Positions 21,375-23,016 of a DNA stretch of 37,950 nt are shown here, in pieces (positions within the stretch are counted from its first letter, which is position 1; each line of letters starts with the position of its first letter). The DNA is from Burkholderiales bacterium (GTDB lineage: Bacteria; Pseudomonadota; Gammaproteobacteria; Burkholderiales; Usitatibacteraceae): the NCBI GenBank assembly GCA_025360815.1, contig JANYBL010000013.1, forward strand, positions 1-37,950, given 5' to 3'. The position numbers and the translations under genes are program-made. Under the pieces are notes generated by a model. It ran no database searches, was not told the DNA's origin, and saw only the letters and a list, made by a program, of their open reading frames with translations.

Positions 21375-22109
21375 TTATGAAGGCGGTTTTTCAAGCCGTT
21401 CCCAAACACCATTAACCAGCCCCTCAATCGGCTGGAAATTAATTTTGTAGCGCATCTTGCGGCTTTCTTCAATCCAATAGCCCAAGTAAACATAGGCCAG
21501 CTTGCGGCGCTTGGCTTCGGCTATTTGCCAGAGAATGCTATAGGTGCCGAGGCTTGATTGGGAGTGCTGCGCATCGTAAAAGGTGTAAACCGACGAGAGT
21601 CCGTCGGACAGGGTATCCATAATGCTCACTATTCGGAGCACCCCGTGTTCGCGAAACTCGATCAAACGGGTATGTACATTTGACTGGAGCAAAAAATGCG
21701 AATACTGTTCGCGGCTATCATGATCCATGCCGCCGCCCGGATGGCGTGACGCCTGATAGCGTCGGTAAAGCGCATAGTGTTCATTCGAAAATTTTAGCTC
21801 CAATACCCGTGCCACCAAATGTGGATTGCGGCCCAGCGTGCGGCACTGTGCACGGTTTTCTTCAAACTCATTCACCAGCACCCGCACCGGAACGCATGCG
21901 CGGCAGTGGTCGCAATAGGGACGATAGGTAAACGCGCCGCTCCGCCGGAAGCCCGACGACACCAAATGCCCATAGGTTGGCGTGTCGATCAAATAGCTCG
22001 GCGTGGCCACCTGCGACCGCGCCAACCGCCCCGGCAGGTAGCTGCAGGGGTAGGGCGCTGTTGCATAAAACTGCAAATTGGCGAAAGGTAAATCGTTTAG
22101 CTTACTCAT
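21375..22109 (-). CDS. bpt: Aspartate/glutamate leucyltransferase
   Basis: Transfers leucine from Leu-tRNA to proteins with N-terminal Asp or Glu, marking them for ClpS/ClpAP degradation. The sequence has the ATE/Bpt blocks: [18 protein letters not shown] near the start, the [13 protein letters not shown] cysteine motif, [16 protein letters not shown], and the C-terminal [13 protein letters not shown] and FQPIEGL. At 244 aa the length is normal. In many betaproteobacteria aat and bpt are adjacent and co-transcribed. Here aat lies upstream in the same direction, but the spacer is widened to 217 bases by a palindromic element. Confidence 0.96.
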
Positions 22110-22140
22110 GGCTGGCCGTTATTGGCTTGGAAGGCTCTAG

Positions 22141-22287
22141 GGAAGCTCTGATTAAGTCTATTTCGTCACCAGACGTTGTGCGGAGTGTAAAAATTTCTGC
22201 TTGTGCTTGTATATCAAACATATGCGGCGTCGAAATGTTTACACCCACGCCTAGTCTGGTTTAGATCGAGACTTAATCAGAGCTTCC
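22141..22287. mobile_element. MITE-like palindromic element between aat and bpt
   Basis: The two ends are perfect 19-bp inverted repeats: GGAAGCTCTGATTAAGTCT (22141-22159) and its exact reverse complement (22269-22287). Nested inner pairs exist too: ACCAGAC (22168-22174) with GTCTGGT (22254-22260), and GTGTAAA (22185-22191) with TTTACAC (22238-22244). The whole 147 bp could fold into one long broken hairpin. CTAG precedes the left end. TAG follows the right end, or CTAG if the last C is shared, which looks like a target duplication of 3-4 bp. IS5-type elements duplicate such YTAR sites. It encodes no protein. A miniature inverted-repeat element that borrows a transposase from elsewhere is the best reading. 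Confidence 0.8.
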
Positions 22288-22326
22288 TAGGTCAAAAGTT
22301 CGTCAAAAAATTTATCGAAGCGTCCA

Positions 22327-23016
22327 TCACAGCGTCCAATAAGAAACGGGCGAACGGTCCGAATTCAATGTTATCAATTCTTGTAACCGTTGCGTGAATT
22401 CTTTACGCGGAATCGGGTGCGCACCGAAGCTGGCAAGGTGTTTGGTTTCTTGCTGACAATCGATCAATTGAAAGCCGTCGCGGGTGAGTTTTTCGACGAT
22501 CGCCGCAAAGGCAACTTTTGAGGCGTCCGTTTCGCGGGCAAACATGGATTCACCATAAAACACACGCCCCAAGGCTATGCCGTAAAGCCCGCCGACCAGC
22601 TTGCCGTCTCGCCACGCCTCCGCGGAATGAGCAAAGCCGATTTGATGCAATGCGATGTAAGCGGCCTGCATCGCGGGTAGTATCCAAGTCCCGCTTTGTT
22701 GACTGCGCGGCTTTGAACAAGCCGAAATGACACTGGCAAACGCAGTATTAAAACGCACCTCAAATTTGTTGGCGCGAATTGTTTTCGCAAGCGACTTGGA
22801 GAGCTTGAACTCACTGGGCAATAACGCCATCCTCGGATCGGGGCTCCACCATAATATCGGTTGGCCTGCGGAATACCACGGGAAAATACCGCGTGAATAG
22901 GCGGTCAAAATCGTCTGCGGGTCGAGATTACCGCCCATGCACAGCAGCCCGTTGGGTTCGTGCCGAGCACGTTCGACATCGGGGAAGTCTTGTGCTGTTT
23001 TAATCGAGGGAATCAT
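22327..23016 (-). CDS. aat: Leucyl/phenylalanyl-tRNA--protein transferase
   Basis: Attaches Leu or Phe from aminoacyl-tRNA to proteins with N-terminal Lys or Arg, creating primary N-degrons; cytoplasmic. The family blocks are clear: LLCMGGNLDPQTILTAYSRG, IFPWYSAGQPILWWSPDPR, TWILPAMQAAY, GFAHSAEAW, LVGGLYGIALGRVFYGESMF and LIDCQQETKHLASFGAHPIP. Length (229 aa) is normal. It is upstream of bpt on the same strand, and the two products act in the same pathway. The 217-base gap between them holds the inverted-repeat element. Confidence 0.96.
   Translation of the reverse strand: MIPSIKTAQDFPDVERARHEPNGLLCMGGNLDPQTILTAYSRGIFPWYSAGQPILWWSPDPRMALLPSEFKLSKSLAKTIRANKFEVRFNTAFASVISACSKPRSQQSGTWILPAMQAAYIALHQIGFAHSAEAWRDGKLVGGLYGIALGRVFYGESMFARETDASKVAFAAIVEKLTRDGFQLIDCQQETKHLASFGAHPIPRKEFTQRLQELITLNSDRSPVSYWTL

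Follow-up and report, generated by a model that had tools for sequence, protein, structure and literature searches.

An inserted element between aat and bpt

The window analysed here, a stretch of 37,950 nucleotides, contains a 147-bp near-palindrome at positions 22141-22287 that separates aat from bpt. A palindrome wedged between these two genes had been described in the first-pass annotation, and Pfam confirms both of them. Since both genes lie on the minus strand, the order of transcription would be aat, element, bpt. The features of the junction are listed here in window coordinates.

21375-22109, minus strand: bpt, ATE-family tRNA-protein transferase, the downstream gene (Pfam ATE_N, ATE_C)
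22137-22140, no strand: CTAG, left copy of the target duplication (sequence; YTAR duplications at sister copies)
22141-22159, plus strand: left 19-bp terminal inverted repeat (sequence, palindrome, end search)
22159-22270, plus strand: conserved structured core (covariance model R3, 75.2 bits)
22165-22167, plus strand: conserved unpaired GTC of the outer internal loop, opposite TTA at 22261-22263 (genus alignment)
22175-22177, plus strand: conserved unpaired GTT of the second internal loop, opposite CTA at 22251-22253 (genus alignment)
22183-22197, plus strand: left arm of the inner stem, variable but compensated (alignment, covariation)
22232-22246, plus strand: right arm of the inner stem, variable but compensated (alignment, covariation)
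22269-22287, minus strand: right 19-bp terminal inverted repeat (sequence, palindrome, end search)
22287-22290, no strand: CTAG, right copy of the target duplication, its C doubling as the last base of the element
22327-23016, minus strand: aat, leucyl/phenylalanyl-tRNA-protein transferase, the upstream gene (Pfam Leu_Phe_trans)

The left repeat, GGAAGCTCTGATTAAGTCT, is the exact reverse complement of the right one over 19 of 19 bp, and further stems are nested within the terminal repeats, so that the perfect ends and the nested pairs noted earlier are both borne out. The long broken hairpin expected in a transcript is likewise recovered: a 167-nt stretch with the element folds with a z-score of -7.3 as DNA and of -9.7 as RNA, and in either case none of 200 shuffled sequences was as good. 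CTAG is found on both sides provided that the right copy takes in the final C of the element (without it, the right flank reads TAGG), in agreement with the earlier reading of these flanks as a target duplication. With up to three mismatches, a 17-mer of the end occurs in the window at these two sites only (0.01 expected). The element carries no gene of its own; among open reading frames of at least 80 aa, the sole overlap is a mechanical one. None of the 4227 Rfam models matched positions 21900-22500 up to an E-value of 10, and none matched the core at 13 further loci, two of which are the same place, up to E 1; one Rfam match of 0.94 at locus L190 is unrelated to the core. Rfam is without a family of this kind.

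The distance between aat and bpt is 217 nt here and ranges from -14 to 17 nt in relatives. The element is absent from 10 of 10 junctions, which come from 9 of the 12 congeners; the other three gave no bpt match and hence fall outside the comparison. One congener, G009, contributes two aat-bpt pairs, located on separate contigs (L064, L072). In G008, whose flank is by eye most similar to that of the window, the two genes overlap by ATGA. The spacers of relatives are thus short and uninterrupted, as an insertion would have it, but an exact empty site is not discernible because the residual 70 nt of the gap are too diverged to display one. Among the genomes seen, the insertion is therefore private to this lineage. 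Beside the junction, the C-termini of Aat differ, that of the window being 8 residues shorter (..PVSYWTL compared with ..PVSYWTNERNLRDQS in G008; 22327-22400), and thus the stop codon differs as well.

In its genome (3.74 Mb in 129 contigs) the element has 7 copies of 70-100% identity, four of which carry the end within two mismatches on both sides. By DNA search the window copy is matched in 5 of 13 genomes of the genus, its own included, and a copy from G002 in 8 of 13, while 15 other genomes of the family gave no match to the element copies. The proposal of a MITE-like insertion, for which other copies with the 19-bp end were to be sought in the genome, is in line with these copies and with the junctions that lack the element; the contrary pattern of one conserved site and no further copies was not found. 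As a side observation, copy ends provide the stop codon and the last residues of a neighbouring open reading frame at L005:1501-1520 and L003:1628-1644, one such frame being RnfB-like by eye and ending ..LREL.

The ends were guessed to be of the IS5 type, and this guess is supported by a congener. G011 encodes an intact 341-aa protein that matches the IS5-family transposase model NF033581 with 346.6 bits (cut-off 140) and has the Pfam domains DDE_Tnp_1 and DUF772. Its first listed start lies 14 nt past a near-identical 19-bp end, CTAG followed by GGAACCTCTGATTAAGTCT, and an ATG is found 15 codons further. The matching right end, GGACTTGATCAGAGGTTCC followed by CTAG (GGTTCC, then CTAG), is located on a different contig; the transposase is thus bounded by the same ends, on two contigs. 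The GGAACC variant occurs at both ends of a G011 MITE (L019) and at the left end of another locus (L026). In the own genome, in contrast, there is no match to the G011 transposase (P0001) within 129 contigs, in which a copy may have been collapsed. DDE_Tnp_1 gives three matches there at two places, with internal stops, and DUF772 finds one relic only, hence no cognate transposase was accepted; at L039 and L040 the end of the element is absent. Loci L039, L040 and L042 are relics of DDE transposases with internal stops and lie near contig ends. What had been proposed about this element therefore holds for the MITE, its duplication, its copies, the short junctions and the IS5-type ends; a cognate transposase in the same genome was not found.

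The element shares with IS5-family MITEs its ends, GGAAGCTCTGATTAAGTC, the 4-bp YTAR duplication and the matching transposase of a congener. Among 21 copies of this end class, an exact 4-bp duplication is seen in 6 and a left-side YTAR in 13, and flanks taken from different copies agree in 59 of 420 comparisons, the target being nearly constant. With the G011 insertion sequence only the ends are in common; the core was not seen in the part of that sequence read, and a simple deletion derivative of this IS was rejected because the interior is absent from it. Two observations from G011 are added here. A short element at L030:164-332 (contig 44) has GGAGCCTCTGATCAAGTCC.. ends, CTAG flanks and, by eye, an unrelated interior. 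The ends of the IS itself (L032:1-1200, L049:1300-1608) have near-inverted flanks, ACCAATGCTAG and CTAGCATTGGT, on two contigs, which point either to a target that is itself palindromic or to two copies lying within a repeat.

The exact 19-mer end was found in 92 stretches of other taxa (genome contigs), among them Acidobacteria, Nitrospirota, Planctomycetota and Gammaproteobacteria. An inverted partner (at most 5 mismatches, within 400 bp) exists for 67 of the 92, and many have YTAR flanks. Single-linkage clustering sorts the interiors of these elements into 16 groups, of which 9 have at least two members and none is linked to the family described here. Occurrence in so many taxa with unrelated interiors identifies the 19-mer as a widespread IS5-type end. 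One interior group, mostly of 157-161 bp, includes elements of both Nitrospirota and Gammaproteobacteria, and some elements of other phyla share an AAGGCG..CAACGAAG motif by eye. The idea of the same core within GGAAGC-ended elements of other phyla was not supported, as covariance model R2 gave a single match, of E 0.25, on 46 of the 92 loci. Thus, we show here that the window element is an IS5-type MITE inserted between aat and bpt. Such a MITE alone is an ordinary find, and the notable part is its class-wide core, the interchangeable ends and the copies in core operons.

A hairpin core shared across the class

Aligned copies of the genus are conserved in their outer portions and around the apex, and a 13-15 bp inner stem varies in both arms together. 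This co-change is seen even among G002 copies that are 86-98% alike to L020 where fully matched. Pairing was assessed in alignment A3, made of 22 cores without ends (22 of 29 compiled copies; three with insertions and four fragmentary or diverged ones were omitted). In A3, 89.2% of the cells pair, and double changes occur in 17 of 33 pairs, a number reached in none of 500 shuffles. Counted by cell, there are 70 double changes compared with 22.4 in shuffles, again with 0 of 500 reaching 70. When the partners are slid by 1-3 columns, pairing falls to 27-50%, although the A3 structure was derived from folds of its own sequences, which favours it over the slid versions. Alignments A5 and A6 have double changes in 24 and 28 of 33 pairs, respectively (0 of 500 shuffles each); both were fitted to the structure of the model, which leans in favour of that structure. 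Across the three alignments 89-92% of cells pair, compared with 24-53% in slid controls. A5 omits 7 of 38 matches (L036, L035, L038, L006, L208, L199, L169), and A6 additionally omits L020, L201 and L226, the last a near duplicate of L225.

Covariance model R1, built on the core, recovered it in 10 of the 13 genus members; sites outside its training set scored strongly in G004 (C64, E 3.9e-20) and G007 (E 6.4e-16). With new copies added, R2 found it in 73 of 399 genomes of the order and in 34 of 158 genera at E-values up to 1e-4. R3 extended this to 56 of 369 genomes searched for the class, in 48 of 272 genera; of these 56, all but G000 and G042 carry the label of the same class (54 genomes). 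The E-values are approximate; even so, a threshold of 1e-4 per genome should let through fewer than one match by chance in 369 genomes. Copy numbers per genome are lower bounds, since the best 9 or 10 candidates of each were scored. In the whole window, the core at 22159-22270 is the sole R3 match up to E 10. Plasmid and phage collections searched with a class-B element gave no match, and the class-B end is present in two viral contigs. Hence, we show that the interior belongs to a class-wide hairpin family with covarying stems and recurrent unpaired bases. The literature searched, with subscription journals mostly outside its scope, yielded no description of this core across genera.

The unpaired bases are informative about the origin of the covariation. 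The element may be an ordinary IS5-type MITE with a functionless interior, in which one arm is overwritten by a copy of the other through template switching at replication; correction of this kind could produce covariation without function. MITE-type ends and target duplications agree with this explanation, and so do the terminal repeats, which covary as arm correction would have it (double changes in 12 of 17 pairs). Arm correction should, however, remove mismatches, and GTC/TTA and GTT/CTA, 10 nt apart, persist in the genus set, where they recur unpaired at 73-100% per column. In the order-wide set, mean conservation is 0.75 for the 12 loop columns, 0.70 for the inner stem and 0.81 for the outer stems; the loops lie between the two stems and are thus not the most conserved part, which speaks again for an ordinary MITE. 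Against it stand copies that lack catalogued ends and have nevertheless been kept, in different families, at one and the same operon gap. On balance we consider a functionless interior unlikely, but it is the explanation that has to be taken most seriously beside action at the RNA level.

Interchangeable ends, operon gaps and known repeats

Classified by script, 71 cores comprise 21 of the window end class, 22 with GGGCACCTCTAAAAATC ends and 28 with neither. Exact 4-bp duplications flank 11 of the 22 GGGCACCTCTAAAAATC copies, compared with 6 of 462 when flanks of different copies are paired. Among 20 further loci taken across the class, one per genome, more end kinds are found, for example CAGGCTGTTGAAAAA and TAGTGCCCATCCATAAACGG. 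In copies with neither end the stem extends past the core, and outer positions pair in 13-15 of 20 cases at groES-groEL and 10-14 of 20 at gap-pgk; in six copies with ends this value is 17-20 of 20.

Several cores lie in gaps of conserved operons, with neighbours named from NCBIfam and Pfam. The core is found between groES and groEL in three species (L197, L198, L211), between gap and pgk in three families (L241, L244, L248), and between genes for an alpha-like and a beta subunit of formate dehydrogenase in two species (L191, L192), the alpha subunit being named by partial matches only. It separates nuoD from nuoE in L243 and follows the same NuoD C-terminus in L267, where nuoE was not called. 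Other sites are after sdhB (L242), between a fadB-like gene and a thiolase gene (L203), between prs and rplY (L266), and between secY and rpsM (L262, outer pairing 17 of 20). The copies at groES-groEL, gap-pgk and nuoD-nuoE have neither catalogued end. All operon-gap loci are best-scoring ones and not a random sample.

Strand was compared where the core lies between tandem genes. Of the copies that lack catalogued ends, 16 run with the genes and 4 against; of those with ends, 15 and 10 (p 0.20); L198 and L211 are counted as sense, because the divergent label given by the script stems from a spurious antisense frame over groES. Fixed cut-offs of outer pairing give 5 to 2, 9 to 2 and 12 to 4 (p 0.68, 0.27 and 0.50). 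After removal by hand of the degenerate-ended L187, L196, L189 and L208 the ratio is 16 to 0 (p 0.003), and 15 to 0 (p 0.006) if the degenerate L231 is removed as well. Counted by distinct site, 11 of 13 are sense (p 0.02). In a second set of loci, weakly ended tandem copies are 4 with the genes (L266, L267, L268, L279) and 1 against (L263). For copies that lack catalogued ends, a bias towards the sense strand, significant only after hand removal, is suggestive only.

That one core travels with several end kinds would also be expected if it acted as DNA, either as a protein-binding site or as an extruded hairpin that aids transposition, with its presence in operon gaps a by-product. Mismatched triplets spaced by 10 nt fit such a role, and long Correia elements bind IHF, according to PMC2649163. 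Copies of the gap-pgk type, which lack catalogued ends, need not be mobile and have kept the paired core nevertheless, and we regard action as DNA as quite improbable.

The comparison with Correia elements (CREE, NEMIS) rests on viral contigs of 72.8 kb that we take to be Neisseria-like, and on elements therein that we take to be Correia elements, both from the end pattern. Up to E 10, R3 matched three places on them, each a Correia element aligned in register: two identical copies at E 6.6e-4 and a long one at 7.5e-3, where E-values are rough. The other six of the nine Correia elements in these contigs, among them several short or truncated ones, are missed. Correia elements resemble the window family as short MITEs with inverted ends and a conserved core, and the three matched ones have GUACGGCGUUGCC..CGCCUUGUCCUG in common with it. 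They differ in the inner stem and in distribution, the window family being class-wide. The ends also differ, as Correia elements have TATAGTGGATTAA and TA at their termini (PMC2229807), compared with GGAAGC and CTAG here. Since Neisseria-type ends were not found, the window element is filed as probably related to Correia elements and not as one of them.

Other known repeats were compared as well. ERIC/IRU of enterobacteria are likewise long imperfect intergenic hairpins of similar size with motifs similar by eye, and ERIC is said to change the expression of neighbours in Yersinia (PMC2267715). At one E. coli ERIC locus R3 scored 7.5 bits in register (E 1.5), below a nearby chance place of 9.3 bits, so that the match to ERIC at this locus is not significant. 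The Betaproteobacterial repeat element BRE is also a dispersed short repeat, usually intergenic, but has about 90 bp, 69% GC and often tandem arrays (PMC3110155); the comparison is by description.

Possible action at the RNA level

We favour, with a probability of about 0.5, that the core works at the RNA level as a Correia-like hairpin that would affect processing or stability. In a read-through transcript the interior would fold into a long imperfect duplex, and RNase III or a similar protein could cut or bind this duplex, as for Correia/NEMIS hairpins. Two parts of one transcript would thereby get different lifetimes. According to PMC2649163, RNase III binds the transcripts of Correia elements, which are cut or protected; neighbouring genes are altered as a result (PMC2649163, PMC10969869). 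For the copy in the window, the mRNAs of aat and bpt may be uncoupled and decay separately, and any translational coupling of the two genes would be lost with the tight junction.

The aat-bpt spacer RNA has a folding energy of -79.0 kcal/mol (z -8.2), and neither a terminator-like site (stem and T run, either strand) nor a sigma-70 promoter was found in 22050-22400. A hairpin this stable and no terminator-like site fit Correia-like processing. The stability of the hairpin would also suit a transcription terminator or attenuator between the two genes, but with no terminator-like site on either strand such a function is very improbable. The orientation of the core is antisense to aat-bpt. Hence only a function that depends on the duplex would be expected here, not one that needs sense loops.

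For action at the RNA level we count the recurrence of the core in the same operon gap of different species (groES-groEL 3, gap-pgk 3, formate dehydrogenase 2, nuoD 2), the covariation in A3, A5 and A6, the class-wide distribution, and the in-register placement of three Correia elements by R3. Counted against it are the antisense orientation, by which a sense-strand function would not act on aat-bpt, the order-wide loops being less conserved than the outer stems (0.75 and 0.81), the 6 of 9 Correia elements that were not matched, and a strand bias that is suggestive only.

Bacterial MITEs are mostly described by genus and named after their ends. Here, one covariance model unites copies with several unrelated ends, copies without catalogued ends that occupy the same operon gaps in different families and, at a modest in-register score, some Correia elements. 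It is conceivable, though in our view somewhat doubtful, that the core is an ancient class-wide RNA module, a cis-acting processing or stability element of conserved operons, outside of which unrelated ends were repeatedly formed to give rise to MITE families, Correia elements included. If this is true, the operons that carry the module include groES-groEL, gap-pgk, nuoD-nuoE, formate dehydrogenase, prs-rplY and secY-rpsM, and bacterial MITEs that look unconnected would be vehicles for a single RNA regulator, which they could bring into any operon. A core that is a regulatory RNA would explain why the elements are retained and would predict which insertions alter expression. It would also allow the question of junk or installed regulator to be tested where gaps are orthologous, for instance at groES-groEL and gap-pgk. 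A minor observation concerns three genomes (L235, L232, L263) in which an extra outer stem, ATACTC..GAGTAT, surrounds the core; it is perhaps another end class.
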